DNA from: Nitrospira sp.
GTDB taxonomy: Bacteria; Nitrospirota; Nitrospiria; Nitrospirales; Nitrospiraceae
DNA length: 35,603 nucleotides
Direction of reading: 5' to 3'
NCBI GenBank assembly: GCA_024281365.1
Contig: JAMXAU010000011.1
Coordinates: forward strand, 1-35,603
How positions within the stretch are numbered: position 1 is the first letter of the stretch; every line of letters begins with the position of its first letter. The position numbers and the translations under genes were made by a program. This document shows positions 1 through 32,077 of the stretch, piece after piece. The notes below the pieces were generated by a model that was given only the letters and a program-made list of their open reading frames with translations, was not told the DNA's origin and did not search any database.

Positions 1-2
1 GA

Positions 3-794
3 CCACAGGGACGATTTTCTGAGCCAGCGCGTGAGGCGGTGTATCGGGTAATTTTTGAACGCCGTGACGTGCGCCGGAACTTTCTGCCGAAGCCAATCCC
101 TGATCCGGTGATGATGCGATTGTTAACGGCGGCTCATCATGCCGGATCAGTCGGCTTCATGCAGCCGTGGGATTTTGTGGTCATCCGCAATGGCGCAACG
201 AAACGTGCGGTGAAGAACCTGTTCATCGATGCCAACACCAAAGCTGCTGCCCGATATGCAGGTGCCAAGGGAGCACTGTACCGGCGGTTGAAGTTGGAAG
301 GCATTGAGGAAGCACCGATCAATCTGTGCATCACATGCAGCCGACGACGCGGTGGGCCACAAGTCCTTGGGCGCTCCACGGTGCGTGCGACGGACTTGTA
401 TAGTACCTGTTGCGCGGTTCAAAATCTCTGGCTGGCCGCCAGGGCGGAAGGGATCGGGGTCGGTTGGGTCAGCATCCTCGATCATCAGGCGCTGAAGCAA
501 GTGGTTGGTGTTCCTAAATCGGTGACGATTCTGGCCTACTTGTGTTTAGGGTATGTCTCGAAATTTGAACAAGCTCCTGATTTAGAGACGGCGGGGTGGC
601 GGGAGCGGATTCCAGTTGATCAGCTCATTCACTATGAAGCATGGGGGAATCAAAGTTCGGACAAGGGGAGCAACGGATATGCGGATTACCAAGGTCTATA
701 CAAGAACGGGAGACGCGGGAAAAACCAGACTCGCCGGCGGGCAACCGGTGTGGAAGGACAGTCTTCGAGTCGAGGCGTACGGCACCGTCGATGA
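3..794 (+). CDS. bluB: 5,6-dimethylbenzimidazole synthase BluB (5' end outside window)
   Basis: BluB is a flavin-destroying nitroreductase-fold enzyme that converts reduced FMN to 5,6-dimethylbenzimidazole, the lower ligand of B12. The start of the family is recognisable in the run ERRDVRRNF, followed by the FMN-binding nitroreductase pattern (HHAGSVGFMQPWDF) and a late GVGWVSILD segment. The reading frame is open to the window edge, with residues typical of BluB upstream of the first GTG at 39, so the true start lies outside. The usual family C-terminus is reached near LIHYEAWG (about 640). The frame then continues for roughly 50 residues through the start of the next gene, and that Arg-rich tail looks like an out-of-frame reading of it. 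The neighbouring cobT uses the DMB made here. The family call is secure; the real stop is uncertain. Confidence 0.88.
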   Translation, partial: PQGRFSEPAREAVYRVIFERRDVRRNFLPKPIPDPVMMRLLTAAHHAGSVGFMQPWDFVVIRNGATKRAVKNLFIDANTKAAARYAGAKGALYRRLKLEGIEEAPINLCITCSRRRGGPQVLGRSTVRATDLYSTCCAVQNLWLAARAEGIGVGWVSILDHQALKQVVGVPKSVTILAYLCLGYVSKFEQAPDLETAGWRERIPVDQLIHYEAWGNQSSDKGSNGYADYQGLYKNGRRGKNQTRRRATGVEGQSSSRGVRHRR

Positions 795-1275
795 ATTGAA
801 TTCTTCAATCGGAATGGTTCGGGTTTTTAATCAAGAAATTGTTGAGCACAACAAACAGGCCGGCCAGTTGGAAGATGAGCTTCGATGGGTGCAGAACAAA
901 CTCTTCGATGTCGGAAGTATTCTGGCGACGATACCAGGGCAGACGTTCAAGAATATGCCGCAAGTACTGGCGAGCGATGTCACACGGCTTGAAAAAATGA
1001 TCGATCGATGCCAGAAGAGTTTGGAACCGCTCAAAGAGTTCATCCTTCCCGGAGGGGGAAAAGTGTCGGGTTTTCTCCACCAGGCCAGGACGATTTGCCG
1101 TCGAGCCGAGCGCGTGTGTGTCGCGCTCTCAAAAATTGAAGCGGTTGATCCGACCATCATCAAGTTCGTCAATCGGCTGAGTGATGCCTTGTTTGTCCTG
1201 GCTCGATGGGTGGCCAAGACACAGGGCGAACCGGAATTTTTGTGGGAACGGGATGTCGCCAAGAACTCGACGTAA
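679..1275 (+). CDS. pduO: PduO-type ATP:cob(I)alamin adenosyltransferase
   Basis: This enzyme transfers the 5'-deoxyadenosyl group from ATP to the cobalt of a reduced corrinoid, giving the adenosylated form required by the later steps. The start ATG at 679 follows GGGGAG at suitable spacing and gives the family N-terminus MRITKVYTRTGDAGKTRL, with the ATP-binding TRTGDxGxT motif. Other PduO hallmarks follow: VDELNSSIG, FILPGGGKVSGFLHQAR followed by RRAER, and NRLSDALFVLAR. The product is 198 residues, normal for the family. An in-frame ATG at 616 gives a longer form, but the extra residues are not family-like. The gene overlaps the bluB frame upstream and cobU downstream, consistent with one coupled operon. 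Confidence 0.93.
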   Translation: MRITKVYTRTGDAGKTRLAGGQPVWKDSLRVEAYGTVDELNSSIGMVRVFNQEIVEHNKQAGQLEDELRWVQNKLFDVGSILATIPGQTFKNMPQVLASDVTRLEKMIDRCQKSLEPLKEFILPGGGKVSGFLHQARTICRRAERVCVALSKIEAVDPTIIKFVNRLSDALFVLARWVAKTQGEPEFLWERDVAKNST

Positions 1276-1813
1276 CGCTCGGTCTGTCGGACGACCCAAG
1301 GGTCGTATCATTGTCGTGTTGGGTGGGGCCTCGTCCGGGAAAAGCGAGGTCGCGCTTCAGTTAGCGGGCTCGCGGGGGCCACGTGCATTTGTAGCGACTG
1401 GGCAGGGGCTTGATGCCGAAATGGTGGAACGCATTGCGCGGCATCGGGCGACCCGTTCAGCCGAATGGCAGACGATTGAAGAGCCTCTTGATGTGGAGGC
1501 CTGGTTTGCCAAACAGGGGTCAGAGTACCGGATCATCGTGTTTGATTGTGTGACACTCTGGTTGAGTAATTTGGTCGGGATCGGCCTCGGGGAATCAATC
1601 ATTCTTGCGCGTATAGGAACACTTCTTGACGCGATGCGGCGTACCGGGGCCAAAGTGATCATCGTCAGTAATGAGTTAGGGTCTGGCCTTGTCCCAGCTG
1701 AACCATCAGTGCGAGCTTTCCGTGATCTTTCCGGACGAGTGAATCAATGTCTTGCTGCAGGGGCGAATGAAGCCTATCTGGCGGTCAGTGGACTACCGCT
1801 TCGCCTGAAGTGA
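1253..1813 (+). CDS. cobU: Adenosylcobinamide kinase / adenosylcobinamide-phosphate guanylyltransferase
   Basis: This bifunctional CobU/CobP enzyme phosphorylates adenosylcobinamide and then transfers GMP to it, giving AdoCbi-GDP for CobS. The P-loop GGASSGKS sits near residue 23. It is followed by a family-typical segment with HRATRSAEWQTIEEP and by VFDCVTLWLSNLV; the latter is the second nucleotide-binding signature of CobU. The late segment SNELGSGLVP also fits the family. The ATG at 1253 gives 186 residues, close to the usual length of about 180, and overlaps the adenosyltransferase by 23 bases. An ATG at 1181 in the same frame would add residues that only shadow the upstream gene. Translation is probably coupled to the preceding gene. 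Confidence 0.93.
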   Translation: MSPRTRRNARSVGRPKGRIIVVLGGASSGKSEVALQLAGSRGPRAFVATGQGLDAEMVERIARHRATRSAEWQTIEEPLDVEAWFAKQGSEYRIIVFDCVTLWLSNLVGIGLGESIILARIGTLLDAMRRTGAKVIIVSNELGSGLVPAEPSVRAFRDLSGRVNQCLAAGANEAYLAVSGLPLRLK

Positions 1814-1826
1814 GGAAAGGAGCGTG

Positions 1827-2879
1827 ATGTCGATTCAGGATGTCTGTCATCAGATTCAGCCGCTTGACCCAGCTTTGCACACGAAAGCACAGACTCATTT
1901 GGGTCGGCTGACCAAGCCACTCGGCAGCCTTGGCAAGCTTGAGGAGTTGGCCACAGCCTACGTCACCATGACCGGCGAGTTGAAGCCCACTATCCCCCGG
2001 GGAATGGTGTTCACATTTGCTGCCGATCATGGTGTCACTGCGGAAGGTGTGAGTGCCTATCCGCGTGAGGTCACCCCTCAAATGGTGCTGAACTTCCTAC
2101 GGGGTGGCGCCGGCGTGAACGTACTCGCCAGGCACGCGGGCGTGGTTGTCCGTGTGGTCGATATCGGAGTTGATTATGACTTTAAGACCGCCCCTGGGTT
2201 GATTCACCGAAAAATCATGAATGGGACAGGCAATGTGATGCGTGAGCCGGCGATGATGCGGGAGCAGGCGGAGCAAGCCGTCCAGGTGGGGATCGACTTG
2301 GCGACAGAGGCTGTACGGGAGGGTATCGGTCTCATCGGGACAGGGGAGATGGGAATCGGGAATACGACTCCCAGCGCGGCCATTACGGCGGTGATGACCG
2401 GTCGGCCTGTGGAAGAGGTCACAGGACACGGGACAGGTATTCAGGAGTCAGATCGTGCGCACAAGGTACGTGTGATTCAACAGGCTCTCGATCTACATCG
2501 TCCGAAGCCGTCCGATCCGATCGGTGTGTTGGCAAAGATCGGGGGATTGGAAATCGCTGGACTGGCTGGGCTGATGCTCGGTGCCGCCGCCTCCCGTGTG
2601 CCTGTTGTGTTGGATGGATTTATCGCCGGTGCTGCGGCGTTGATCGCCGTAGGACTTCAGCCGTTGTGTCGTGCCTATCTGATTGCCGCGCATCGGTCGG
2701 TCGAGAAGGGGCATCGCGCGATTCTGAACCAGTTGGGATTGACCCCGCTGTTTGATCTCGATTTTCGACTCGGTGAGGGGACCGGAGCCTGTTTAGGGAT
2801 GGATCTTGTCTGTGCAGCCGTCAAAGTCTATACGGAGATGGCGACTTTCGAAGAAGCCGGGGTGGCAAACAAGTTGTGA
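1827..2879 (+). CDS. cobT: Nicotinate-nucleotide--dimethylbenzimidazole phosphoribosyltransferase
   Basis: CobT activates the lower-ligand base, making alpha-ribazole phosphate from nicotinate mononucleotide and DMB. Supporting motifs are FTFAADHGVTAEGVSAYP, FLRGGAGVNVLARHAG and GEMGIGNTTPSAAI. Near the C-terminus, RLGEGTGA carries the glutamate that acts as catalytic base in the family. Length (about 350 residues) is standard. A strong ribosome-binding site, AGGAAAGG, lies at 1813-1820 and suits ATG 1827 better than the GTG three bases earlier. The stop overlaps the cobS start (TGATG). With bluB and cobS in the same operon, the lower-ligand arm is complete in this cluster. Confidence 0.96.
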   Translation: MSIQDVCHQIQPLDPALHTKAQTHLGRLTKPLGSLGKLEELATAYVTMTGELKPTIPRGMVFTFAADHGVTAEGVSAYPREVTPQMVLNFLRGGAGVNVLARHAGVVVRVVDIGVDYDFKTAPGLIHRKIMNGTGNVMREPAMMREQAEQAVQVGIDLATEAVREGIGLIGTGEMGIGNTTPSAAITAVMTGRPVEEVTGHGTGIQESDRAHKVRVIQQALDLHRPKPSDPIGVLAKIGGLEIAGLAGLMLGAAASRVPVVLDGFIAGAAALIAVGLQPLCRAYLIAAHRSVEKGHRAILNQLGLTPLFDLDFRLGEGTGACLGMDLVCAAVKVYTEMATFEEAGVANKL

Positions 2880-3649
2880 TGCCTATTGGAGCCGTCGCCC
2901 GCCCATTCATCTTCGCCTGGCATTTTCTGACGACCATTCCTCTGAGCAGAGTGCATCATGAACCGACGGCGCCTGAGCTCGCGGCGTCGATGGCCTGGTA
3001 TCCCATCGTGGGCTTGCTGATAGGTGGCGGCCTGGCTGTTGCTGATATGGCATTGCAGGTGGTCTTTGACGGTATCGTGGTGAATGCCTTGTTGATCGTG
3101 CTCCTAGTGCTGCTGACACGCGGACTTCATCAGGATGGATTGGCCGATACGTTAGATGGCCTGGCTGGAGGTTGCACATCGGTCGAACGACTGTCGATCA
3201 TGCGCGATCCCCAGGTCGGTGCACTCGGTGCCACCGGGCTCTTTCTCTCGCTGCTTCTCCGTTATGCCGGCTTGATGGTGTTACCTCAAGAATTGCGAAT
3301 GCCTGCGCTGTGTTGTATGCCTGCGGTCGGCCGTTGGGCCATGGTGACCTCCGCATGGATTTCTCCCTACGCCAGGGCGGAAGGAGGCTTAGCCGCTCCG
3401 TTTCTTACCCATCTCTCGTGGCGACACGTCCTCGTGGCCACACTTCTTGTGGCCATTGGACTGGGTGTAGGTTTCGGCATCGCCAGCTCGTTCATCGTCA
3501 TGATGGCCGGGGTAGTTGTCGTGCTGATTGGTTGGTGGGGGTGCCGTAGATGGTTCGGTGGGATTACCGGCGATACGCTTGGGGCCATGAATGAGGTCAT
3601 CGAGATTCTCTTCCTCCTGTCCATTCCGCTCCTGTTTCGGTTCGCATGA
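2879..3649 (+). CDS. cobS: Adenosylcobinamide-GDP ribazoletransferase (cobalamin synthase)
   Basis: CobS is the integral membrane enzyme that joins AdoCbi-GDP and alpha-ribazole (phosphate), the last assembly step of B12. The N-terminus reads FAWHFLTTIPLSRV, and the metal-binding segment is recognisable as HQDGLADTLDGLAGG followed by MRDPQVGALGA. Several hydrophobic helices fill the rest of the protein, and length (about 256 residues) is typical. The ATG at 2879 overlaps the cobT stop by one base; a GTG at 2876 is an alternative three bases upstream. The end of the gene overlaps cbiB by four bases (ATGA), so the three genes are almost certainly translated as one unit. Confidence 0.94.
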   Translation: MPIGAVARPFIFAWHFLTTIPLSRVHHEPTAPELAASMAWYPIVGLLIGGGLAVADMALQVVFDGIVVNALLIVLLVLLTRGLHQDGLADTLDGLAGGCTSVERLSIMRDPQVGALGATGLFLSLLLRYAGLMVLPQELRMPALCCMPAVGRWAMVTSAWISPYARAEGGLAAPFLTHLSWRHVLVATLLVAIGLGVGFGIASSFIVMMAGVVVVLIGWWGCRRWFGGITGDTLGAMNEVIEILFLLSIPLLFRFA

Positions 3650-4602
3650 CCGGCGGCGAACTTCTTGCTGCGGCTGTAGTGGATGCACTGCTTGGTGATC
3701 CTCACTGGTTGCCGCATCCCGTTCGTGTGATGGGACGATGTATTGCATGGTGTGATCATGGAGTGCGGAGGATCTGCCGAAGCGCGATCAACCTTCGCCT
3801 CGCAGGAATTTGTCTCGCCATCGGATTGCCGACCGTGACCTTCGTGCTTGCCACAGTGATCATCGAAGAGGCCAAACAGGTTGCGGAATGGTTGGGGTCT
3901 GCTCTCTCGATCATCATGGCATGGATGACGCTGGCTGCGAGGGACCTCTGGGACCATGCCCATGCAGTGGATGGCCCACTCCAGGCAGGAAATCTCTCAG
4001 CTGCGCGCCGAGCGGTGGGGATGATTGTCGGGCGAGACACGGCCGGACTCTCCCCATCCGAGGTGGCTCGTGCGACGGTCGAGACTGTCGCCGAAAGTTC
4101 GGCAGATGGTGTGGTTGCGCCTCTCCTGTACTTGGCAATCGGTGGTGCCCCCCTGGCTTTGGCCTACAAGGCAATCAACACGCTTGATTCCATGATTGGA
4201 CACCGCGATACCCGGTATGCTGATTTCGGATGGGCATCGGCTCGACTGGATGATCTGGCCAACTGGATTCCGGCTCGTCTTGCGGCGATGCTCTTGATTC
4301 TTGGTGCCGGCTTGATGACCAGACAACGAGAAGCAGTCTGTCGGGGATGGCGTATGTTCATACGGGATGGAGGGAAGCACCCTAGTCCCAACAGCGGGAG
4401 GCCTGAGGCAGCAATGGCCGGTGTGTTGGGCGTGAGACTTGGTGGCACCAATTTCTATGACGGCATTCCACATAACCGTCCAACGCTTGGCCTCGAAGGG
4501 CGCTGTGTCGAACCAGACGACATCGTCCCGGCAACGAAGGTGATGGCAATAGCCAGTGTGTTAGCTGTTCTTCTGGCCATAGGACTCAGATGGCTCGTGT
4601 GA
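3646..4602 (+). CDS. cbiB: Adenosylcobinamide-phosphate synthase CbiB
   Basis: CbiB (CobD in Pseudomonas nomenclature) attaches aminopropanol or its phosphate to adenosylcobyric acid to give (phospho)cobinamide. It is a multispanning inner-membrane protein. The N-terminus has the family pattern LLGDPHWLPHPVRVMGR. Conserved positions follow in RDTAGLSPSEVARATVETVA, ESSADGVVAPLLYL, YKAINTLDSMIGH and the late segment HPSPNSGRPEAAMAG. Its 318 residues match the family. The ATGA overlap with cobS and the 13-base overlap with the following cobD show tight coupling. Its substrate could come from CobQ or from CbiZ; since cobQ looks broken here, CbiZ is the more likely source. Confidence 0.95.
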   Translation: MTGGELLAAAVVDALLGDPHWLPHPVRVMGRCIAWCDHGVRRICRSAINLRLAGICLAIGLPTVTFVLATVIIEEAKQVAEWLGSALSIIMAWMTLAARDLWDHAHAVDGPLQAGNLSAARRAVGMIVGRDTAGLSPSEVARATVETVAESSADGVVAPLLYLAIGGAPLALAYKAINTLDSMIGHRDTRYADFGWASARLDDLANWIPARLAAMLLILGAGLMTRQREAVCRGWRMFIRDGGKHPSPNSGRPEAAMAGVLGVRLGGTNFYDGIPHNRPTLGLEGRCVEPDDIVPATKVMAIASVLAVLLAIGLRWLV

Positions 4603-5699
4603 ACAGGTCTTTACATGGTGGGAATATCTATCGTGTCGCACGAGCGCTGGCATGTGATCCAGGCGATATCGTCGATTTCAGTGCAAGCATCAATCCCTTG
4701 GGCCCTTCTCCACATGTGTGGAAAGCCATTGCCTCTTCCAGGCATCTGCTGGCCCATTATCCAGACCCGGACTGCTGGGAGCTTCGCCAAGCGTTGGCTG
4801 CATTCTGGCGGATGAATCCAGACCAGATCGTGGTTGGGAACGGCTCTACGGAGTTGATCGATGCGCTGCCTCGTGCGTTGGGTATGCATCGTCTCCTTGT
4901 CGTCCAGCCCACATTTTCAGAATATGCCGCAGCAATGAGGCGGGCTGGAACCCAGACCACAACACTCTATGCAGATCGAATCGACGACTATGCCATTCCA
5001 GTCGATCGTCTTTGTCGGGCCATGGAGACAGGCCGGAACGAGGGGCGCTCCTTTGACAGCGTGATGCTCTGTCACCCCAATAGCCCGACAGGGCAGGCCT
5101 GTACCGTCGATGATCTGATACGATTGGCCGGGTCTGCTCGCAAGCGAGGTCTTTGGCTGATCATTGATGAATCGTTTGCCGATTACTGTTCTGACCGGTC
5201 GGTCTTGCGCCGGGCGGTCTCTTGGCCACATGTCGTGGTCCTACGCAGTATGACCAAGTTCTATGCCTTACCCGGATTGCGGATAGGCTATGCGGTGTCG
5301 GCACAGACAACAATCAGACGGATTCAACGACAGCTCCCTCCTTGGTCGGTCGGTACGATGGGGCAAGTTGCGGCATTGGCGGCCCTCAACGACGAGGCCC
5401 ATGCGCGAACAAGCCTGACATTCATGATACAGGAGCGTGAGCGATTTCGAAGAAAGCTGGCCGCGTTACCTGGCTGTACGGTGATACCCACCTATGCGAA
5501 CTACTGTCTTGTCGAGCTCCCTCGTGCTCACCCTGCACGCGACATCACTGAACAATTGCGAAGAAAAGGAGTATTGATTCGAGATTGTTCTTCAGTGCCC
5601 GGTGCCAACTCACGATCTGTTCGACTCGCGGTGCGAACGAGGTCAGAGAATGACCGACTGTTTCGCGAGCTTTCTCACCTACTCCTCCTTAAGAACTAA
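4590..5699 (+). CDS. cobD: L-threonine-O-3-phosphate decarboxylase (PLP, aminotransferase fold)
   Basis: CobD makes (R)-1-aminopropan-2-ol phosphate, the linker used by CbiB. The fold-type I PLP pattern is clear: HGGNIYRVAR at the N-terminus, DFSASINPLGPS, GNGSTELID, a HPNSPTGQ motif, the IDESFADY aspartate, and the likely Schiff-base lysine at about residue 223 in RSMTKFYALPGLRIGY. The length of 369 is normal. Close relatives include histidinol-phosphate aminotransferase, but the HGGN N-terminus and the position between cbiB and cbiZ favour CobD. No kinase that makes threonine phosphate (PduX-like) is seen in the window. Confidence 0.92.
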   Translation: MARVNRSLHGGNIYRVARALACDPGDIVDFSASINPLGPSPHVWKAIASSRHLLAHYPDPDCWELRQALAAFWRMNPDQIVVGNGSTELIDALPRALGMHRLLVVQPTFSEYAAAMRRAGTQTTTLYADRIDDYAIPVDRLCRAMETGRNEGRSFDSVMLCHPNSPTGQACTVDDLIRLAGSARKRGLWLIIDESFADYCSDRSVLRRAVSWPHVVVLRSMTKFYALPGLRIGYAVSAQTTIRRIQRQLPPWSVGTMGQVAALAALNDEAHARTSLTFMIQERERFRRKLAALPGCTVIPTYANYCLVELPRAHPARDITEQLRRKGVLIRDCSSVPGANSRSVRLAVRTRSENDRLFRELSHLLLLKN

Positions 5700-5701
5700 A
5701 G

Positions 5702-6430
5702 ATGAAGAAACACGCCACACAGGTTCATAGCAGGTATCGTGTGAGAGGGCAGACGTTGGTGATTGAGCTGGAAGGGCGAAAGCGCGTTCTTTCATCGGCT
5801 CCCCAAGGGGGAGGGTTCAGGGTGGCTTCCTATATCCTCAATCATCAGGTGGATGCTCAGTCATCGGTGCCAGGAACGCAGTCGCTGTCCTGTCATGACC
5901 CGGCATTTTGTTTACGGGAGTTGGCCGTTTCCATGGGAATCCACGCATCGACTGTCGGGCTGATGACGGCGGTTCCGATGACGCACGTGGTGACGGCACG
6001 AGCTGCGTCGGATGGGTTATGGGTGGAGTGTTTTGCAACGGTCGGTGTGACCAATGCCGTTCGAGCTGGAGAATGGCCACCCGGAGATGGTGCCGGCAAC
6101 AGATTACTCAAACCTGGGACGATCAACCTCATTCTCATCACGAACGGCAGTCTGTCTCAATCCGCAATGGTCGGTGCCGTACAAGTTGTTACAGAGGCCA
6201 AGAGCGGTGTGTTACGTGATCACAGCGTCCTGAGTTGCCAGAGCAGTGCTGCTGCCACCGGGACTGGGACAGATGCAGTGGTGATTGCCTGTTCTCTGCG
6301 TGGACAGGGGACATGGCATATCTATAGTGGGACGCATACCGTTATGGGGGCATTGATCGGGCAAGTCGTCACCGACTGTGTTACGCATGGCCTGGCGAAG
6401 GCAAGAGCCTGGCAGGAGTCGCATCGATGA
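5702..6430 (+). CDS. cbiZ: Adenosylcobinamide amidohydrolase CbiZ
   Basis: CbiZ hydrolyses the aminopropanol side chain of adenosylcobinamide, regenerating adenosylcobyric acid so that scavenged cobinamides can be rebuilt with the cell's own lower ligand. Recognisable family blocks are VGLMTAVPMTHVV, CFATVGVTNAVRAGEWP, the GTINLILITNGSLS segment, VVTEAKSGVLRD and ATGTGTDAVVIAC. At 242 residues it is typical of stand-alone CbiZ. It starts two bases after the cobD stop and overlaps cobQ by four bases (ATGA). The context gives a salvage function to an operon that otherwise looks like the end of the de novo pathway. Confidence 0.93.
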   Translation: MKKHATQVHSRYRVRGQTLVIELEGRKRVLSSAPQGGGFRVASYILNHQVDAQSSVPGTQSLSCHDPAFCLRELAVSMGIHASTVGLMTAVPMTHVVTARAASDGLWVECFATVGVTNAVRAGEWPPGDGAGNRLLKPGTINLILITNGSLSQSAMVGAVQVVTEAKSGVLRDHSVLSCQSSAAATGTGTDAVVIACSLRGQGTWHIYSGTHTVMGALIGQVVTDCVTHGLAKARAWQESHR

Positions 6431-7834
6431 CGGTACAGGCACTTGCTGTTCTGGGGACTGGCTCAGATGTCGGGAAAAGCCTGATCACAGCAGGAATCTG
6501 CCGATTCCTTCATCGTGCAGGCATGCGAGTAGCCCCATTCAAAGCACAGAACATGTCGCTGAATTCATTCGTGACTCCGGAGGGCGGAGAGATCGGTCGA
6601 GCGCAGGCACTCCAAGCTGAAGCCTGTGGCATTCTCCCGCATGTCGACATGAATCCCATCTTGCTCAAGCCAGAGTCTGACAATCGTTCGCAGGTCGTCG
6701 TGCGAGGATCCGTATGGTCCAGGGAGAACGCTTCGACCTATTTTGAGCGAAGACCACAACTGTGGGCCATTGTGCAGGACAGTTATGCCAGACTGGCACA
6801 ACAGTACGAGACCATAGTCATTGAAGGAGCTGGAAGTGCGGCAGAGATGAATCTGCGCGACCGGGATCTGGTCAATTGGCCTATCGTCGAACTGGCTGAT
6901 GCCCGAGTAATCCTGGTGGCTGATATTGATCGAGGCGGTGTCTTTGCTCAAGTGCTTGGAACGGTAGACCTGTTGGAACCGGACGAGCGAGATAGGGTTT
7001 GTGGTGTCGTCATCAACAAGTTTCGCGGTGATCCGAAGCTCTTTGCCGATGGAGTGAGTTTTGTGGAGTCTCGGAGCGGGATTCCTGTCTTGGGTGTCGT
7101 GCCATTTCTTCAAGATCTGCTGTTGGACCAAGAAGACAGTTTACATCGGGAAAGATATTGTGATCGTTCCTGGGAGTAAGAATACGCTTACCGACCTATC
7201 ATATCTCCGAGAGCAGGGGTATAGCCGTATCCTTGAACGTCATGTGTGTAGTGGGAGGGAGCTTGTGGGCATCTGCGGTGGCTATCAAATGCTTGGTCGA
7301 ACAATCTCAGACTCTCATCATGTCGAGCAAGGCGGAATAAGTTCTGGTCTAGGTTACTTGAGCATTGAAACTGAGCTGAGTCAGAAAAAGTGTACCGAAC
7401 AGGTGGAAGCCAATCCAACAGATACGCTGGTGGCTGATCAAACCATCGTGAGAGGCTACCAAGTTCATATGGGAGTTACCGTGTATCGGAACGAACGCCC
7501 CTGTTTCCGGTTGCAACGTCGTGTTTCTCCAATAGGAGGAGCCCATTCATTGACGGCTGTACAAGAGGATTCGTGTGATGGGGCCATTCGGGAGGATGGT
7601 CTTGTTTGGGGCACCTACATTCATGGAGTGTTTGATGAGCCTAGTTTTCGTCGAGCCTGGCTCAATCGTGCCCGTGCGCGGAAAGGGCTTCTCCCGGTTG
7701 GGGTTCACACCTCCCGATCCGTCACCGCTCGACTGCGAGGTGAACTTGACCGATGGACAGATCACCTGAGTCGATCTCTTGATATGGCGCGGCTACTCTC
7801 CTGCCTATCTCATCGTCGCATATTCTCCCTGTAA
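6427..7834 (+). pseudogene. cobQ: Cobyric acid synthase, broken by internal deletion and frameshift
   Basis: CobQ/CbiP is the glutamine-dependent amidase that converts adenosylcobyrinic a,c-diamide to cobyric acid. The N-terminal synthetase half is intact from ATG 6427: P-loop GTGSDVGKS, FKAQNMSLNSFVT, IVIEGAGSAAEMNL, DIDRGGVFAQV. It reads to LLLDQEDS at about 7140, then changes frame and stops at 7179. The glutaminase half continues in another frame from about 7142, with DIVIVPGSKNTLTDL, the nucleophile motif GICGGYQMLG and the catalytic-His motif GTYIHGVFD, to a stop at 7834. In intact CobQ about 50-60 residues lie between the QEDS and PGSKNT motifs, including the conserved LPxISNxTDFDPL stretch. 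That stretch is absent here. Deletion plus frameshift predicts no working enzyme. Confidence 0.86.
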
Positions 7835-7960
7835 CTTTTGCTTCTTCCGTCTGTCTTCTGCCGATTGCACATCATCTTTAGTCGTGAAGAAATGCTCCCT
7901 CCTGAGCGTAAGTTGCTGATATTCACGGATTTCTTGCCAATCGTCCACAAGGCGATACAC
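7805..7960 (-). CDS. Possible small hypothetical protein, 51 residues
   Basis: On the minus strand a short frame runs from GTG at 7960 to TAG at 7805. It encodes a charged, helix-prone peptide (DDWQEIREYQQL, then SAEDRRKKQKLQGEY). The composition looks protein-like rather than random, but no ribosome-binding site precedes the GTG. Just upstream on the same strand an ATG in another frame leads into a run of eight T; with seven T the two frames would join into a protein of about 60 residues. The frame overlaps the 3' end of cobQ by 30 bases in convergent orientation. I do not recognise the family. It could be a chance frame or a gene remnant. Confidence 0.25.
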   Translation of the reverse strand: MYRLVDDWQEIREYQQLTLRREHFFTTKDDVQSAEDRRKKQKLQGEYATMR

Positions 7961-8349
7961 TGCAAAAAAAACAGTAAGAATCGAGCATAGTTAGCGGTTG
8001 AACAATGCGGATGTAGACCGATCAGTAATGACCGGGAGTCCCATTTACGATTGTGATGGCGAGATTGTGGAGGGTTGCCACAGCCCCTTCCCAGTGACCC
8101 CTTCTAAAGGTGAGAAAGGTTTCACCGATAAGTTCCTCATCAGCCAAGTGATTACCACGCGTAACGCACTGGGCCGTGGGTCCTGAGTATGCCGGTCTCA
8201 CTTGTCTTCCGTGTCATGATGCGACCAAAGGGGAGCGGGATATCGCGAGTTCCAAGAAGGAAGGAATAGAAGAATCGAGCCCTGGTGCTCGCACTAAGTG
8301 GAATCTGGCGTTGCCCTAGGTGATTGCCTCCGCAGAGAGGAACAGTCTC
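7835..8349. other. Intergenic region between the cobalamin and chemosensory operons
   Basis: About 515 bases separate cobQ from the chemosensory operon. The first part is covered by the weak minus-strand frame described separately. Around 8109-8126 there is a small inverted repeat (GGTGA...TTCACC) with no T-run, so I do not call it a terminator. A TTG-initiated plus-strand frame at 7998-8186 has no family resemblance or ribosome-binding site. I cannot point to a convincing sigma-70 or sigma-54 promoter, although the chemosensory operon promoter is expected here. Confidence 0.5.
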
Positions 8350-8712
8350 ATGAGCAAGATTGTGGTTGTTGATGATTCGCAGGCTGAGCTTCAACTCATT
8401 GAGTCGTATCTCAAGGCTGCACATCATACCGTCGTGACGTTTCCGAACACGGAACAGCTTGAAGAGAAAATCTTCAAGGAAATGCCGGATCTGATCGTCA
8501 TGGATGTCGTCATGCCTGGTCGAAACGGGTTTCAGGCCTGTCGAGATCTGAAGAGTGATATGCGATTGAGTCGTATTCCGATCCTCCTGTGCACATCTAA
8601 GGGTCAAGAAAGCGACAAATTCTGGGGGCAACAGCAAGGCGCGAACGGGCATGTGGTCAAACCGTTCAAGCCCGAAGAGCTTCTTCTGGCCGTGAAGCGT
8701 GCACTGAGTTGA
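8350..8712 (+). CDS. Single-domain response regulator (PilH/CheY-like)
   Basis: This 120-residue protein is a stand-alone receiver domain. The acidic pair is in VVVDDSQAE (residues 6-10), the phospho-acceptor aspartate is D52 in LIVMDVVMPGRNGF, and the conserved lysine is about K104 in VVKPFKPEE. The GANGHVVKPF segment resembles PilH/PilG of the type IV pilus chemosensory system more than flagellar CheY. The ATG at 8350 is preceded by GAGAGG at normal spacing; an in-frame upstream start at 8320 adds ten residues without support. It opens the chemosensory operon and is the likely diffusible output or phosphate sink of the CheA encoded downstream. Confidence 0.92.
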   Translation: MSKIVVVDDSQAELQLIESYLKAAHHTVVTFPNTEQLEEKIFKEMPDLIVMDVVMPGRNGFQACRDLKSDMRLSRIPILLCTSKGQESDKFWGQQQGANGHVVKPFKPEELLLAVKRALS

Positions 8713-8741
8713 CGTGCTGATGGTGCAAAGGGCGGAACGAG

Positions 8742-9263
8742 ATGCAATTACTATGTGAGCTGCCTCGGCTTATCTCCGACGGTCAATCCGAGCAGAAAAC
8801 ACCGACAGGTTCGTGGAAAGCCTGTTTGGTCACTCTCGGAGGAGAACTTTTTGCGATCGATCTGCGTCACGTGCGGGAGGTATTCGAGTTAGATGCGATC
8901 ACACCGGTTCCCGGGATGCCGGCGTCATTGGTTGGCGTCGCCAATGTTCGAGGGACGGTTGTCCCTCTCGCGGATTTGCGACGGTCTTTGGGAGTCTCGC
9001 CATCGACAACTCCACGATATGCAATCGTGGTACGGCATGATGCTCATCAAATCGGCCTGTTGATTGACGATGTCCCAGAAATTCGATGGATGTTGCCCGA
9101 AGACCGGCTCGATCCTTCAGGCGCAACCCAGACCGGAGAGCGATCTCTGTTGTCTGGCCTCATCAGGGTGGAGAACCGCGTGAGTGGAATGCTGGAGATT
9201 CCAGCATTGGTCGCGTCGGTGGAAGCAGCAACCCTGGAAGTGAGCCAGTCCGTGAAATCGTGA
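8742..9263 (+). CDS. cheW: CheW/PilI-like coupling protein
   Basis: CheW proteins bridge transducers and CheA in signalling arrays. A single CheW domain fills residues 25-165: LVTLGGELFAIDLRHVREV, then the LVGVANVRGTVVPLADLRR signature, and VVRHDAHQIGLLIDDVPEI. A short N-terminal extension of about 25 residues precedes the domain. Among the three CheW-type genes of this operon it is the one closest to consensus, so it is the best candidate for the main adaptor between the transducer encoded next and CheA. Confidence 0.9.
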   Translation: MQLLCELPRLISDGQSEQKTPTGSWKACLVTLGGELFAIDLRHVREVFELDAITPVPGMPASLVGVANVRGTVVPLADLRRSLGVSPSTTPRYAIVVRHDAHQIGLLIDDVPEIRWMLPEDRLDPSGATQTGERSLLSGLIRVENRVSGMLEIPALVASVEAATLEVSQSVKS

Positions 9264-9323
9264 ACAGTGGTTCCGAGTCAAGTTGCCTGAGCAGGATTGA
9301 GCACGTGGAGGAGGATGTAGGGT

Positions 9324-11213
9324 ATGGCCAGGAATAGCAAATCGACGGTTCGACCGTCGCCGTCATGGTTTCAGAACCTCAAGACTCTGCCGAAGTTAAT
9401 CCTCGGGTTTTCTGCTGTCGGTCTCATCATGATCTCAGTTGGTCTTGTCGGCCTGATGGGACTTCATACGGTCAAGGGAGAGTTACAGTCGATCTACAAC
9501 GGATCGACCTTAGCGCTCTCAAATGTCGGAATCGCCAGTACCAACCTCGGTCTCTATCATAGCGCGCTCCTCAATTTAGGACGGCAGGTTGGAAAGAATG
9601 AGTTTGATCAAGCGCTCGCTGGGCTGGCCGAACTCAAGAAACAGACATTGATCCCCCTGAATGCGTATCAGACATCTCAGTTGCATGAATCAACCAGTGG
9701 TCGGAGTGAAAGTAAAGATCTCGCCAGTCTTCACCAAGCATTGCGTGAATATTTTGCCGCGACAGAGGGTGCGGTTGGTGTATTTGCGGAGAGCTTCAAA
9801 TCATCTCTTGCCGAAGAACAGAAACAGAGCATGCGCGAAGTTGGACAGTTGGCATTGTCCGCTGATGTTGCGAATAAATACAACGCGGCGACTCTACGGG
9901 TTCGGGAGCTCATGACGACGATTCTCGACGTGGCAAGAGAAATGAACGACAACGGGCAAGCTGAAGCCTCCCATCGGGCGAACGTCGTTCTGGCCGGTTC
10001 GTTATTGGCGCTTGTGTTGGCCGGCATAATCGGATTCTACCTCGCCGGCTCTATCGCGCGAAACATCACGCATGTTGCCGATGTCGCCCAACAAGCTGCA
10101 GCAGGGAATCTTCAAGCTCGAGCCAGACTTGAGAGCAACGACGAGATCGGGCATTTGGCTAAGGCGTTCAACATTATGCTCGACCGGCTCACGAGCCTGG
10201 TTTCTACCGAAGAAGAGCGGGATACCATGCAGAAACGATTGGTGCAGTTTCTGGTCCTCGTGTCCGATGTCGGGAAGGGAGACTTGACCAAACGCGGTGA
10301 AGTCACGGCTGATATGTTCGGAAATTTGGCGGACGGTTTTAACCTCATGATCCAACGATTCGCGCAATTGATGAAGCAAGTCAGAGAATCGGCCGAGCGC
10401 GTGAATCGATCAGCCGGGGCATTGCGAGAGAATTCCGGCCAGATGGCCGGTACCGCCAAGCACCAAGCTGATGAATCGATGAAGACGCTCAGCGCTGTGG
10501 AACAACTTGCGGTTTCCATGAGGCAAGTGGCGGAAACGGCTGGAGCCTCTTCCGACTCAGCGCGCCAGGTGTTAAAAGCAACAGAAGATGGCCGAGTTGC
10601 GGTGCAGGAAACCGTGCAGGACATGCAGCGTATTCGATCAGCGGTTCAACGAATGTCGAAACAGGTCAAGGCTCTTGGTGATCGCTCGTTAGAAATTTCC
10701 CAGATCGTCTCCACAATTCGTGAAATCGCCAATCAAACCAACTTACTTGCTTTGAATGCGGCGATCGAAGCCGCAGGGGCAGGCGAAGCCGGTGCTCGAT
10801 TTGGTGTCGTGGCCGACCAGGTTCGAAAGCTCGCCGAAAGCTCCACGAACGCAACCCGTGAAATTGCGGATCTCGTGAAGGTGATTCAGAGCGAGACGCA
10901 GCACGCCGTCGTGGCGATGGAACATGAAACGCAGGCGGTAGAGGCAGGATCCGCCTCAGCCTTGCGGACTGGCGATGTATTCAAAGAGATTTCAACGATC
11001 GCGCAACGGTCTGCAGAGCTTGCCCAGAGCATTGCGGCGGCCGCAACGACCCAGACGGTATCCACGGATCAAGTCGGTCGATCAATCAAGGATTTTACGG
11101 GAGGTGCCATTGCGACGCAAAAAGCAACCGACTCGGCGCGGGCCACGGTAGAAGATATGGTGAAGTTGGCCGAAGGGCTCACGGCTTCGGTGTCACAATT
11201 TAAATTGACCTAA
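9324..11213 (+). CDS. Methyl-accepting chemotaxis-type transducer (PilJ-like)
   Basis: The 629-residue transducer has a first membrane helix at about 24-48, a periplasmic sensory region of about 170 residues predicted helical, and a second membrane helix at about 219-243. A HAMP domain follows (244-297), then a second HAMP-like linker around [20 protein letters not shown]. The cytoplasmic signalling domain extends to the end, with the hairpin tip at about 468-508 containing [20 protein letters not shown] and [14 protein letters not shown]. No CheR-docking pentapeptide is seen at the C-terminus (ends SQFKLT), and no cheR or cheB lies nearby. The architecture resembles PilJ. It starts at ATG 9324 in a compact operon with CheW and CheA. 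Confidence 0.93.
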
Positions 11214-11261
11214 TGGACCAGGAGCGAGCACGCACCTCCTCGTCAGTATAGATGCACACCA

Positions 11262-14200
11262 ATGGGAGCGGAGTCTAATCAACCTGATTTGATTCGAGTC
11301 TTTGTCTCCGAAGCATCGGATGGAACCAGAGTATTAGGAGAAGCATTACGTACCAACGGTGAGCTGATCCCCCCTCCGCACGAAGTTTACGAACACTACA
11401 TTGTCGCCCATCGCCTTCGAGGAGCCGCTGCCCTCTACGGCTACGGGGGAGTTTCTCGACTATCTGCTGAGCTTGAAGTAATTCTCGAGCGCGCGAACGA
11501 CATTGCGCCAGCGGACTGGCCCATGGTTGTGAGTGTGATGCGGGAGGTCGTCGCTGGATTGGTGGACTTGATCCAGCAGATTGGTCGCGATGGTCGTGAA
11601 GATCCGGATGTCGTGACACGCTGTCTTGAATCGCTCGAACGGCTTCAGGTTCTGCCGCCCGCAGTATCAGTCAGTGTGGACTATGTTCATCCTATTCTCG
11701 ACGTTGAGATCCTGTCCTATTTTATCCCAGAAGCGGAGGAGTATCTCCAGACGATCGATGACTTGGTTCGAATTCTTCGTGCAACGCGTGACAACGACGA
11801 TGCCATGTATCGTCTCTTTCGTGCCATCCATACCTTGAAAGGGTCTGCCTATACTGTTGGCTTCCAGGTCATTGGAGATATTGCCCGTCCGATGGAAGAC
11901 GGCATGATCGCGGTAAGAGACAAGCGTCTCGTGTTGACCGACTCTATGCTTGAGGTGTTTGAGAACGCAACGCGAACAGTTCGGCTTCTCTTGCGACGTG
12001 ATCCTCAAGGAGGCTATCAACTGCAGCGTGATGTTCCTGGTCTGATCCACCAACTCATGCAGATGTGTGAGGGGACGGTCTCGGTCGGTCTATTGAGCGC
12101 AGGATCGACGGGACCTGATGTCGTCTCAGCTAGTCCCGTAATACCCGAACCGCTCGTCAGTGTGGAAGTGCCTCCTGTAGACTTGTCTGATGCGTATCTG
12201 CTTCCTGATCTCGATCCGGAAGCCCTCTCGTATTTCGTTCCTGAAGCACAAGAATATCTTGAACTTTTGGAATCGAATCTTCTGCGTTTGGACAAAGAAC
12301 CTCAGAATAGGGAGCTGATCAATGAGGTCTTCCGCACGGCCCATACGCTGAAAGGCTCCGCCTACACCGTTGGATTTCAATCAATCGGCGATCTTGTGCA
12401 TCATGTGGAAGACTTTATGGGGGCCGTTCGCGATGGTCGACTGGTCGTACAGTCAGGCCACACGGACCTTATCCTTCGTTCAGTCGATGTGGTGCGGGTA
12501 CTGATGCGAAGAGACCTCGGCGCAGTATCGGGCACCAGGCAACGGTTTGACGCGACCCGGTCCGACCTCAAGCGATTAGACCAACAAACCTCTGGTGACG
12601 TGACGCCTGCAGTTCCACTCGCTGGGTCGTCACGAGACTCTGCGTCATCCCCGATCTCGGCGATGGAGCCCGTCGAGAAGGACAAGCCGACAGAGGCGAG
12701 GTCATTGGAAGATCGTGAAGTCATTCGTGTCAGTTATGGACGACTCGAACGACTCATGAATCTCGTGGGAGAATTAGTTATTGGGCGAGGTCGATTGGAA
12801 CAACGGCTACGAGTCCTCGAACAACTGTCACAACAGGTTTTGGTATTCAAGTCTCGGTTGGTCGATTCAGTTCAATCCTTTTCTGATAAGCATACCTTTA
12901 CCTATCGAGAGACGCCCCATGCTGAGACGGCGGTTGCGATGCAGGGACCGATGACATTCGGTGATTTTGGCAGCCTCGAACTTGATAAGTATGACGACTT
13001 CAACATCCTCGCTCGACGTATGAGTGAAGTGACGACCGATATCAGCGAGTCATTAGCGCAGTTAGACGGCTCGATTCATCGAGCGCACGACGATATGAGC
13101 CAGTTGCAGCAACTGACTCTCTTAATGCGAGACGAAATTGCCCATGCTCGCATGGTTCCGATCGGGACCCCATTTACACGATTTCGGCGTGCCATCCGAG
13201 AGATTGCGCGTGCCTCAAACAAAGAAGTGACCTTGGTGACGTCAGGTGAGCAGACGGAAGTTGATACAAGTGTTGTGGAGCGTTTGGTGGATCCTCTCGT
13301 CCATCTGGTACGTAATGCCGTCTATCATGGGATCGAACCGCCAGCCGATCGACTCGCCAAAGGCAAGCCCCCAGTCGGTACCATCCACTTACATGCCGCG
13401 CATCGTGGAAATTCCATGATCATTGAGGTGGAGGACGATGGAGCAGGATTGGATTTAGCTAAAATACGGGCCAAGGTGGTCAAGATGGGACTGGCCGGTG
13501 CACAACAGATCGAAACCATCTCCGATGCCGAGCTTCTACAATCGATTTTTCTTCCGGGATTTTCAACGGCTGACAAGGTCGGCGATCAGGCAGGACGTGG
13601 AGTAGGGCTGGATGTCGTGAAGCGGGTCATTGAAGGTATGAACGGTCATATCGCTGTGGAATCCGAGCCCGGCGTCGGAACGAAATTTACCTTGAGCCTT
13701 CCGGTCACACTGCTGATAGCCACGGCCCTCATTGTAAGGGCCGGTGCTGAGCGGTACGCCATCCCATTGCTCAATATTCAGGAAGTGACCATGCCGACCC
13801 CATCGTCATGGAGAGTGGAGGGTGAGCGTACTGTCTTGCAGGTCGGTGAACAAATCATTGAGGTGCACTCGTTACAGCATTTACTTCGGAAGGAGTGGTG
13901 CACTGTTAGTGCAGCGGTGCCGGTCGTCATCGTCCGTACAGCCGGGGGGCCGATTGGGTTAGCCGTCGATGAGCTATTGGGCAGACAAGAAGTCGTCATT
14001 AAATCACTGGGTCAACTGAAACCGCTTGTGCATTCGTTCTTCGGGGGAGCGACGATCGATCCAGAAGGGCGAGTCATTCTAGTAATAGATCCAATACGGC
14101 TGGTTGGGCGAGACAGTAAGGAGTCACGTGTACAGGCCGTGATTTCCAAAAGCCAGGTTCGGCCAGAACAAATGGTTCCAGATCTGGTGAGGTCGACTGA

Positions 14201-14591
14201 GCCGCAGGATGTTCGCCTGTTATTGGTCGACGATTCACTGAGTATTCGAAAGTTTGTTGGGAAAATGTTGGAGTCGGCGGGGTATCAGGTTGATACGGCT
14301 GTTGATGGAGAAGATGGACTGCGTAAGGCATCGTCCTTCCCATACAGCATGATTTTGACCGATCTCGAAATGCCGAAACTAAACGGATTTGAAGTGATTC
14401 AAGCCTTACGAAGACGCTCTGAAACTCGTGAAACACCGGTAGTTGTGATGACGACGCGGGCAGGGGACAAACACCGACAGATGGCGATCAATATTGGGGC
14501 GAATTCCTACATCGCCAAGCCCGTTGAAGAGCGGATGTTGCTTCAGGAAGTCGAACGGTGGGTAGGACCAGCACGAACGCTTGGCAAGTAA
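11262..14591 (+). CDS. cheA: Hybrid CheA/ChpA-type histidine kinase with three Hpt domains and a receiver
   Basis: This 1109-residue kinase is the core of the chemosensory system. Three phosphotransfer sites are visible: His50 in a divergent domain (VAHRLRGAAALYG), His190 and His361, both in HTLKGSAYTVGFQ. The last two domains are near copies. A dimerisation segment begins near VSYGRLERLMNLVGEL. The ATPase follows, with N-box HLVRNAVYHGIE, G1 DDGAGL, FLPGFSTA and G2 GRGVGLDVV (about residue 777). Then come a CheW-like domain and a C-terminal receiver (984-1109) with phospho-acceptor Asp1034 in ILTDLEMPKLNGF. This layout is like ChpA/PilL of twitching motility, reduced in Hpt number. The ATG at 11262 has only weak ribosome-binding support. 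Confidence 0.94.
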   Translation: MGAESNQPDLIRVFVSEASDGTRVLGEALRTNGELIPPPHEVYEHYIVAHRLRGAAALYGYGGVSRLSAELEVILERANDIAPADWPMVVSVMREVVAGLVDLIQQIGRDGREDPDVVTRCLESLERLQVLPPAVSVSVDYVHPILDVEILSYFIPEAEEYLQTIDDLVRILRATRDNDDAMYRLFRAIHTLKGSAYTVGFQVIGDIARPMEDGMIAVRDKRLVLTDSMLEVFENATRTVRLLLRRDPQGGYQLQRDVPGLIHQLMQMCEGTVSVGLLSAGSTGPDVVSASPVIPEPLVSVEVPPVDLSDAYLLPDLDPEALSYFVPEAQEYLELLESNLLRLDKEPQNRELINEVFRTAHTLKGSAYTVGFQSIGDLVHHVEDFMGAVRDGRLVVQSGHTDLILRSVDVVRVLMRRDLGAVSGTRQRFDATRSDLKRLDQQTSGDVTPAVPLAGSSRDSASSPISAMEPVEKDKPTEARSLEDREVIRVSYGRLERLMNLVGELVIGRGRLEQRLRVLEQLSQQVLVFKSRLVDSVQSFSDKHTFTYRETPHAETAVAMQGPMTFGDFGSLELDKYDDFNILARRMSEVTTDISESLAQLDGSIHRAHDDMSQLQQLTLLMRDEIAHARMVPIGTPFTRFRRAIREIARASNKEVTLVTSGEQTEVDTSVVERLVDPLVHLVRNAVYHGIEPPADRLAKGKPPVGTIHLHAAHRGNSMIIEVEDDGAGLDLAKIRAKVVKMGLAGAQQIETISDAELLQSIFLPGFSTADKVGDQAGRGVGLDVVKRVIEGMNGHIAVESEPGVGTKFTLSLPVTLLIATALIVRAGAERYAIPLLNIQEVTMPTPSSWRVEGERTVLQVGEQIIEVHSLQHLLRKEWCTVSAAVPVVIVRTAGGPIGLAVDELLGRQEVVIKSLGQLKPLVHSFFGGATIDPEGRVILVIDPIRLVGRDSKESRVQAVISKSQVRPEQMVPDLVRSTEPQDVRLLLVDDSLSIRKFVGKMLESAGYQVDTAVDGEDGLRKASSFPYSMILTDLEMPKLNGFEVIQALRRRSETRETPVVVMTTRAGDKHRQMAINIGANSYIAKPVEERMLLQEVERWVGPARTLGK

Positions 14592-14661
14592 CCGTGCGGA
14601 AAGCTTTGGATTGATTGACGAAATACGAATTGTTGCGGAGAATGGCCCCGAAGGCGTTGTT

Positions 14662-15195
14662 ATGAGTGTTTCGGGGAAGACAGAGGAGCCTGTCACATCC
14701 ACTTCTACTTCTCCGCCATGTTTGATCATCACAACGATAGGTGGAAGATATTTGGCCTTCGAAGCTGAACATTCCCAGGGGGTACTAACCAGCCAGGACT
14801 GGGAGTTCCTTCACCCTCCAGTTGTGAAAGGCGTACCCTACCCCGTGGTTGATCTTGCCGTGCGGCTTAATCTTGGAGGCGCGAGGCAATGGGATGAGAC
14901 CGAAGGGGTGCTCCTTGCAAATGGGAAGTGCCGAGGTTGCGTGCGTGTTCAGAAAGTCCATGGCATTCTTGAGGCCTGTAGGTCTCAAGTTTTGCCTCTT
15001 CCTGCGCAGTTCCGTGGACCGGAACGAGGATGGTATCGAGGCATGATCCTCTTTGACCACAGTGTGGCACTCGTACTGAATACCGCATGGGTACTTGAAG
15101 AACAGCTTGAGGGGAAGGCAAGCACCGAGTCTCAGGGAACGGAATTCGTTGTGGCTTTGCAAGGAACTATGCAAAGCAAGAACCAGGCATGCTGA
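14662..15195 (+). CDS. Divergent CheW-like protein
   Basis: The protein of 177 residues has a weak CheW fold pattern: CLIITTIGGRYLAFEAEHSQ at the start of the domain, VKGVPYPVVDLAVRLNL in the place of the CheW RGxxxPxxDL signature, and GMILFDHSVALVLNTAWVLE near the end. The invariant arginine-glycine of the signature is changed, so its ability to bind CheA is uncertain. ATG 14662 has GAAGG at a spacing of seven. A TTG at 14581 in the same frame would overlap cheA and add 27 residues. The stop overlaps the start of the following CheW-like gene, so the two are probably co-translated. The CheW assignment rests on weak similarity and context. Confidence 0.65.
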   Translation: MSVSGKTEEPVTSTSTSPPCLIITTIGGRYLAFEAEHSQGVLTSQDWEFLHPPVVKGVPYPVVDLAVRLNLGGARQWDETEGVLLANGKCRGCVRVQKVHGILEACRSQVLPLPAQFRGPERGWYRGMILFDHSVALVLNTAWVLEEQLEGKASTESQGTEFVVALQGTMQSKNQAC

Positions 15196-15638
15196 GAACG
15201 GCCGGCCATGCTCAGCACCGTGAAATGCCTCGATCATGGCATCTCTTGGTGTTTTCTGTAGGAGGAAGACGGCTAGCGGTGAGGACTTTGGAGGTTGGAG
15301 GTATTTCCCAATGGCGTGAGTCGATCCCCGTATCCGGGGGAACTCCCTTTGTTTCAGCCGTGGTTCGGCTCAACCAGACCGTCCTTCCAGTTTTTGATTT
15401 GGCTGGAGTGCTACAACGTACCATGCAGGGAAACAGTCTCTTGTGTCTTAGGGTGAAACATTCATTAGGCGATATGGCGATCTGTATCGATGAAGAGATC
15501 CCGATTCTACAGACTCTTGATCTCTCAATGATTCAGCCCTACCGAGACAACGATGTGCCAGCCGAAGGAAGCTACGCTCATGGCCAGGAAGAAGTTCCGA
15601 TTCTTGCGGTGTCTAGATTGGGGATGGGTTCGTGGTGA
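15189..15638 (+). CDS. CheW-like protein
   Basis: This 149-residue protein matches the CheW domain from about residue 17: HLLVFSVGGRRLAVRTLEV, SAVVRLNQTVLPVFDLAGVL, LLCLRVKHSLGDMAICIDEE and the final VPILAVSRL. The signature VVRLNQTVLPVFDL retains the order of hydrophobic positions but has RLNQ where RGxx is usual. ATG 15189 overlaps the preceding stop by seven bases. It is the third CheW-type gene in the operon, after the consensus-like one at 8742. One possibility is that this pair docks other transducers or alters array packing; sequence alone does not show it. Confidence 0.75.
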   Translation: MLRTAGHAQHREMPRSWHLLVFSVGGRRLAVRTLEVGGISQWRESIPVSGGTPFVSAVVRLNQTVLPVFDLAGVLQRTMQGNSLLCLRVKHSLGDMAICIDEEIPILQTLDLSMIQPYRDNDVPAEGSYAHGQEEVPILAVSRLGMGSW

Positions 15639-28714: not shown

Positions 28715-28759
28715 CGAGTTCCAGCATCCCTGAATAGTTTTGGCTAGGAGGTGTATGAC

Positions 28760-30838: not shown

Positions 30839-31599
30839 TCCCCGACGGAACCAACTCTTCTCCGACTCGACAAGTGGCCTATTTTCATGGCTGCGCGGCG
30901 AACTATTTCGACGATGGAGTCGGCGATGCAGTGATCGAAGTCTTAAAGAAACACGGTGAGGAACCGGCGCTGCCTCCCCAGCGCTGCTCGGGAACGCCGA
31001 TTCAGACCTATGGACATGTCGATCTCGTGCGTGACGGAGCTCGATTCAATATGCGGTCGTTCGCATCTTACGAAACGATCGTGACCGGCTGCGCGTCCTG
31101 TACGCTCATGCTGAAGGATTATCCCACCCTCTTTGCCGAAGGCCCTGAGCGGGTACAAGCGGAGTCGCTGGCCAAGAAGGTCGTCCATATTTCAGAATTT
31201 GTCGCCCGCTCACAGCAGCAGCCTCCCATGGCTCAAGGCTTCGGTGGCACACAACGTGTGACTTATCATGCCTCATGCCATCTTCGTGCGGCAGGTGTGA
31301 GCAAGGAACCAAGGCAGGTGCTGTCGTCGTTGCCCGGCGTGAGCTTTGTAGAGATGCAGGATGCCGACCGGTGTGCCGGTGGTGCGGGGACCTACGTGAT
31401 CAAAGACTATGACACCTCGCAGAAGATTTTTGACCGAAAAGCCCTCGCAATTACGAAGACCGGTGCCGACGTGGTTGCGACGAGTTGTCCGGCTTGCATG
31501 ATCCAGCTCAAGAATGGGTTGCGCGAATCCGTTCAAGTGAAACATGTCGCGCAACTGCTTCAGGACGCCTATCGGGCAGGGGAGGCGGAGCAGAGGTGA
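30661..31599 (+). CDS. CCG-domain Fe-S oxidoreductase (GlcF/HdrB-like), probable second part of the split protein
   Basis: Two cysteine-rich CCG-type domains are visible. The first runs from VAYFHGCAANYFDDG through QRCSGTPIQTYG to TGCASCTLML. The second runs from YHASCHLRAAGV through DRCAGGAGTYVIKDY to TSCPACMIQL. Such domains bind Fe-S clusters in GlcF, LutA and HdrB. Family-like sequence begins near 30785 (KLAPRHLRERYAHL), while the first 40 residues from ATG 30661 are an out-of-frame reading of the gene upstream. The ATG has no ribosome-binding site and overlaps the upstream frame by 178 bases. A one-base deletion in a single fused gene explains this best; an HdrC/HdrB-like two-gene arrangement is the alternative. 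Confidence 0.8.
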   Translation: MLAILRNHAGAVGSTLCQTNSGTNHGTHHEAPGSHGPIAAPAPAAKLAPRHLRERYAHLIPDGTNSSPTRQVAYFHGCAANYFDDGVGDAVIEVLKKHGEEPALPPQRCSGTPIQTYGHVDLVRDGARFNMRSFASYETIVTGCASCTLMLKDYPTLFAEGPERVQAESLAKKVVHISEFVARSQQQPPMAQGFGGTQRVTYHASCHLRAAGVSKEPRQVLSSLPGVSFVEMQDADRCAGGAGTYVIKDYDTSQKIFDRKALAITKTGADVVATSCPACMIQLKNGLRESVQVKHVAQLLQDAYRAGEAEQR

Positions 31600-31672: not shown

Positions 31673-31951
31673 ATGGTGTCCGTGCAGGTCTTTGGTCAGG
31701 TCTTACAAACAGTCGTCGAAGAAAGTGAGATGGAGGTTCCGGTGATGGCACCGACCACCGTCAAACAGTTGGTGGAACAGCATCCTGCGCAGTTTGGAGG
31801 ATTGCTTCCCTATCTTGCCAGTCGGGAGATTCTGATCACGATCAATAAGAAGATCGGCTCGGAAGACTCGCCTATTGGTGACGGCGACGTCGTCAAACTC
31901 TCTTTTCAGTCCCGTATTTCCTACGACGGCAACCGCGACATTCCAACCTAA
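31673..31951 (+). CDS. MoaD/ThiS-like beta-grasp protein without C-terminal Gly-Gly
   Basis: The 92-residue protein has the beta-grasp order of MoaD and ThiS: VSVQVFGQVLQTVVEES, a TVKQLVEQHPAQFGGLLPYL helix region, then ILITINKKIGSEDSPIGDGD and VVKLSFQ. Sulfur-carrier members end in Gly-Gly, which is adenylated and thiolated; this one ends ISYDGNRDIPT. It may therefore be a non-carrier paralogue, or the tail may be cleaved. The ATG has GAGGGC upstream. It ends right against the palindromic repeat. Its partner is not in the window. Confidence 0.6.
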   Translation: MVSVQVFGQVLQTVVEESEMEVPVMAPTTVKQLVEQHPAQFGGLLPYLASREILITINKKIGSEDSPIGDGDVVKLSFQSRISYDGNRDIPT

Positions 31952-32077
31952 CAGGCCTGTTGACAAAGGCCGCCAGCGGCGTTCTCACGTCGCTCAGAGG
32001 CTCAACGTACGGGACAGAGTACGATTCGCCTCTTCGCTCGCTGCGGCCTTGCTGGACGGCCTTTCTGAACAGCCTGC
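31952..32077. repeat. Palindromic intergenic repeat element, about 126 bp
   Basis: The outer arms CAGGCCTGTTGACAAAGGCC and the inverse of GGCCTTTCTGAACAGCCTG match imperfectly over about 25 bases. The inner parts are also inversely related: GAGGCTCAACGTAC against GTACGATTCGCCTC, and GGCCGCCAGCG against CGCTGCGGCC. The whole element can fold into one long hairpin. It begins at the stop of the MoaD-like gene. There is no coding capacity. The sequence resembles multicopy intergenic elements that I recall from Nitrospira genomes; copy number cannot be tested here. It may be a MITE or REP-type element. Confidence 0.7.

Follow-up and report, generated by a model that had tools for sequence, protein, structure and literature searches.

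A broken cobQ gene at a lineage seam in a metagenome-assembled Nitrospira genome

The window analysed here (35,603 nucleotides) is the whole of contig C145 of a metagenome-assembled Nitrospira genome, G000, which comprises 2.63 Mb in 220 contigs and is 76.5% complete, relatives measuring 4.3-4.4 Mb. Its left end carries a cobalamin cluster in which cobQ, encoding cobyric acid synthase, is broken:

1..7153, + strand: cobalamin cluster (left block), in order the end of bluB, cobalamin adenosyltransferase, cobU, cobT, cobS, cbiB, an aminotransferase (CobC/CobD-like), cbiZ and the N half of cobQ (Pfam)
5702..6430, + strand: cbiZ, adenosylcobinamide amidohydrolase (PF01955, E 1.3e-51), directly upstream of cobQ
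6427-7834, + strand: cobQ, the whole broken gene, split at 7153/7154
6427..7153, + strand: N-terminal synthetase (P-loop) half of cobQ (PF01656, E 3.9e-22; PF13500; NF001989, positions 2-239)
7153..7154, + strand: junction, with a 152-bp gap relative to both G006 and G011 (the nearest genomes, see below), one shared base and a lineage seam
7154..7834, + strand: C-terminal glutaminase (GATase_3) half of cobQ (PF07685, E 3.2e-38, profile positions 34-194 of 196)
7154..11900, + strand: right block, with the C half of cobQ, a response regulator, a CheW-like gene and a chemoreceptor

The bluB gene is cut by the contig start; its reading on into the next gene was considered as an extra frame break and ruled out, since there is no indel at that point relative to the relatives. 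In G011, cobB (L131, 8935-10308) lies upstream of bluB; in G000 its place falls within a gap of about 2.9 kb between contigs C63 and C145. At 31948-32076 the window holds a repeat of about 130 bp, dozens of dispersed copies of which occur in G000 and its relatives.

The synthetase half of cobQ is normal as far as its QEDS motif, as an earlier note on this DNA had it: the N-terminal open reading frame (6427-7179) contains a CobQ-type synthetase domain by all three profiles listed above, keeps the CobQ frame through QEDSLHRE (...LLLDQEDSLHRER) until about 7153, and then continues as an out-of-frame tail to a stop at 7177-7179. The C-terminal open reading frame (7061-7834) overlaps it, both frames being open, and the glutaminase half begins there, in a different frame, with DIVIVPGSKNT at 7154, again as described in that note; the restart lies about 13 bases from the end of QEDS rather than the 25 or so estimated. 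The locus resembles CobQ/CbiP (adenosylcobyric acid synthase; TIGR00313, NF001989) in strong profile matches to both domains (to the glutaminase domain only in part), and in gene neighbours and order that match those of sister Nitrospira. It differs in that its halves lie in different frames and cover TIGR00313 only at positions 2-237 (N half) and 284-475 (C half), with 238-283 absent; the first 33 or so of the 196 GATase_3 positions (PF07685) are missing from the C half. Neither open reading frame alone covers the CobQ family profile. Amino-acid identity to the CobQ of G011 is 96.7% in the N half (residues 1-243) and 88.9% in the C half (residues 294-518). Since the linker is gone, the glutaminase domain lacks its start and the frame has changed, cobQ as assembled here cannot be read as one protein.

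The nearest genomes, the Nitrospira MAGs RBC100 (G011) and UBA5698 (G006), both have an intact cobQ, and relative to both exactly 152 bp are absent from the window. Because this amounts to 50.7 codons, the frame changes. The rest of the cobQ alignment is collinear, and in a three-way alignment of about 31.9 kb no window-specific indel other than the 152-bp loss exceeds 3 bp. Translated, the lost segment reads roughly DRRVEFSTEQINIAVISLPHMSNFTDFNSLIAEPDVALKYVTTPSLVEQA; this spans the linker and the point where the glutaminase domain starts, and contains LPHMSNFTDFNSL, the LPxISNxTDFDPL stretch that was expected to lie in the gap. The earlier note was thus right that cobQ lacks an internal segment and has lost its frame, and right that a block is missing, for which 152 bp replaces its figure of about 165 bases or 50-60 residues. 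It also argued correctly against a one-base slip: the block is present in two relatives, which rules out a sequencing slip as the cause. Comparison with intact CobQ, which it had proposed, found 57 of 60 cobQ loci unbroken through the break region, the exceptions being the window, L029 (at a contig end) and G029 (a small frameshift). The frameshift in G029 (L074, G029:C134, 2580-2620) falls at nearly the same codons as the break in the window, at the QEDS motif. A second cobQ elsewhere in the genome, also raised in the note, was not found by a profile search of the 76.5%-complete assembly, the third match being a weak one of glutaminase type. A PDB search with the intact CobQ of G011 found no relative.

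The ends of the lost segment have one base in common. No direct repeat spans or flanks them, which rules out slippage between direct repeats, and the junction contains no Ns. A strong hairpin over the lost segment was likewise rejected as a cause: its folding is no better than that of shuffled sequences (z 0.19). The junction was not found in other genomes; the search for relatives gave just the two intact ones, and records of the genome itself may have been excluded from it.

The C half has 11 synonymous and 10 nonsynonymous window-private codons and no stops (P ~0.02 under neutrality). The relaxed selection expected of a pseudogene is not seen, which excludes just an old loss. By this codon pattern the C half appears still to be under purifying selection, making an old pseudogene, which we reject, unlikely; any loss would thus be recent.

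The two halves also differ in ancestry. We compared the window site by site with G006 and G011, counting the sites private to each, and two blocks emerge:

1..7153, + strand: left lineage block, near G006 and G011 (95.9-96.5% identity), 1.2% window-private sites
7154..11900, + strand: right lineage block, in which the window lies outside a sister pair of G006 and G011, 4.2% window-private sites

While window-private sites rise in this way, those private to G011 (2.9 to 2.3%) and to G006 (2.2 to 2.1%) remain level across the junction. The best changepoint is at 7189, with an interval of about 7067-7222 that includes 7154 and whose lower limit shifts to 7072 or 7075 with the range analysed; the likelihood gains 58 there, whereas none of 30 permutations exceeded 9. 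The contrast holds within cobQ itself, where 7 of 727 sites to the left and 28 of 681 to the right are window-private (Fisher p 1.2e-4) and the figures for G006 and G011 are unchanged. Tree topology switches there as well: in the left block a sister grouping of G006 and G011 is worse by 13 lnL and the window falls among them, whereas in the right block that grouping is better by 30 lnL (100% support), and in the C half of cobQ alone by 10 lnL (98% bootstrap). The halves of cobQ therefore have different histories, which meet at the break.

Such seams are common in this assembly: 27 with a likelihood gain above 15 were found in about 73 kb (four contig stretches of G000), and G000 is therefore a mosaic genome. 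From this seam density we estimate a chance of about 5% that a seam interval of about 150 bp happens to cover any one point, or 1-2% if only the strongest seams are counted. Because seams are so frequent genome-wide, the coincidence of break and seam, as read from these alignments, is suggestive of a joint of two lineages but not decisive, and falls short of proof. Contig C63, just upstream across the assembly gap, is of a divergent type (81-90%). Further to the right, around 12208-15555, two stretches (approximately 11908-12208 and 14628-15555), inside and after a CheA-like gene, differ from both relatives by about 15%, a divergence confined to the window.

The genomic setting bears on whether cobQ could be dispensed with. 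CbiZ makes adenosylcobyric acid, which is also the product of CobQ, from cobinamide (established knowledge and PMC6461909). Corrin-ring genes were not found in G000, G006 or G011, where the TP-methylase profile has only two members, and CbiC is absent from 6 of 6 Nitrospira genomes searched; on these two grounds, these Nitrospira appear to lack ring synthesis and evidently make no corrin ring. N. marina is a B12 auxotroph without ring synthesis, thought to salvage cobyrinate and cobinamide (PMC8115632). In three congeners the orthologous cobQ is a decayed remnant (L225 in G039, L226 in G042, L227 in G055), with residues of about 157-407 gone and an internal stop in G039. These remnants are like the window cobQ in belonging to the same orthologous group and in having an internal loss; they differ in having lost some 250 residues (157-407) or more, and in that each genome keeps an intact second cobQ elsewhere, whereas the window has lost 152 bp and no second copy was seen. 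Loss of cobQ would be tolerable, because ring synthesis is apparently lacking, cbiZ lies directly upstream and cobQ has decayed in these three congeners.

The earlier note thought the gap looked like a true deletion, unless the assembly had collapsed. The block is indeed absent and its relatives have it, but that the deletion is true is not established, since the junction is also a lineage switch. This switch is predicted by a chimeric join or by a recombination end, but not by a simple recent 152-bp deletion in a salvage-dependent Nitrospira, independent of the nearby seam. The exact loss relative to two collinear relatives would fit such a deletion, as would the decay of orthologous cobQ in G039, G042 and G055 (their other cobQ being intact), the capacity of CbiZ to bypass the CobQ product, and the conservation of both halves, which would make the loss recent. 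We nevertheless think it unlikely: it leaves the seam at the junction to chance (about 1-5%), flanking repeats of the slippage type were not found, and no second cobQ was found to offset the loss in G000, an incomplete assembly. A split but functional CobQ is highly improbable. It would consist of two proteins made by translational coupling, ORF 1 stopping at 7179 and the second half possibly restarting from a GTG near 7160, and the open, overlapping frames and some constraint on the second half agree with it. Against this, about 50 conserved residues, including the first 33 of 196 glutaminase-domain positions, are in neither piece; 57 of 60 cobQ loci are continuous, the stretch being missing, besides the window, only at a contig end; and no convincing ribosome-binding site was visible by eye.

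A real deletion where a recombination tract ends, leaving a strain that lacks CobQ and lives on salvage, deserves tentative consideration. Homologous recombination would have brought in 7.1 kb or more of the cob cluster from a G006/G011-like strain, and at one end the exchange would have been resolved illegitimately inside cobQ with removal of 152 bp (homology-facilitated illegitimate recombination). This would account for the coincidence of deletion and seam. The mosaic genome makes recombination between these lineages likely, the block is bounded by the divergent type on C63, and the salvage setting described above would make the loss tolerable. At illegitimate joints like this, 3-10 bp of microhomology is usual, and their frequency relative to homologous recombination is 1e-2 to 1e-3 (PMC6382021). 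Judged from G006 and G011, the junction shares one base, not 3-10, and a rare event is needed whereas other frame breaks in this MAG look technical.

The explanation we favour, though with no better than even confidence, is that the assembly of a strain-mixed, error-prone MAG produced a chimeric join here. The contig would have been joined at 7153/7154 from two Nitrospira lineages, a strain near RBC100/UBA5698 on the left and a more distant one on the right, with 152 bp of cobQ dropped at the join; assembly of a strain-mixed, low-coverage MAG is the most likely cause, and cobQ may then be intact in both source strains. We infer that the joining would have occurred outside the cell, by software or through a rare chimeric molecule. 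A survey of frame breaks is consistent with an error-prone assembly: with about 585 kb of G000 sampled against about 1.26 Mb of G006, of 181 genes that G006 has intact, at least 5 have a broken frame in G000 (two of these in the window contig), and the reverse comparison (186 genes) showed no abutting two-frame break. Two of the three small breaks in G000 outside the window contig sit among clustered mismatches and none of the three in a long homopolymer. A fused GlcD/GlcF-like FAD-oxidase/iron-sulfur gene at 28751-31599, which G006 has in a single frame, is interrupted by the loss of one base at 30793; this break lies inside a divergent stretch and is probably an assembly error or a recent frameshift.

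Assemblers usually change strain at shared k-mers. That metagenome assembly can produce chimeric contigs out of related strains is well recognised (PMC7299287), and the window resembles such contigs in joining two related lineages within a fragmented MAG, but differs in that no shared k-mer is present for an assembler to switch on. The single shared base and the lack of Ns at the junction thus count against a chimeric join, as does the fact that other seams in the window have no comparable gene-internal deletion.

A chimeric join, a loss at a recombination end and a simple deletion are all ordinary kinds of event, and neither a join nor a real loss would surprise a specialist. If the break is a join, gene losses called from strain-mixed MAGs need a check for a lineage seam at the break. 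If the loss is real, it would show B12 handling being eroded further in an organism, a nitrifier, already dependent on others for the corrin ring. A true loss of cobQ at a tract end might, as a possibility we hold only tentatively, impose a need for external corrinoids that are already amidated, rebuilt via CbiZ, CbiB and CobU/S/T; were that so, dependence on B12 would have become one step stricter in a genus that lives by salvage.
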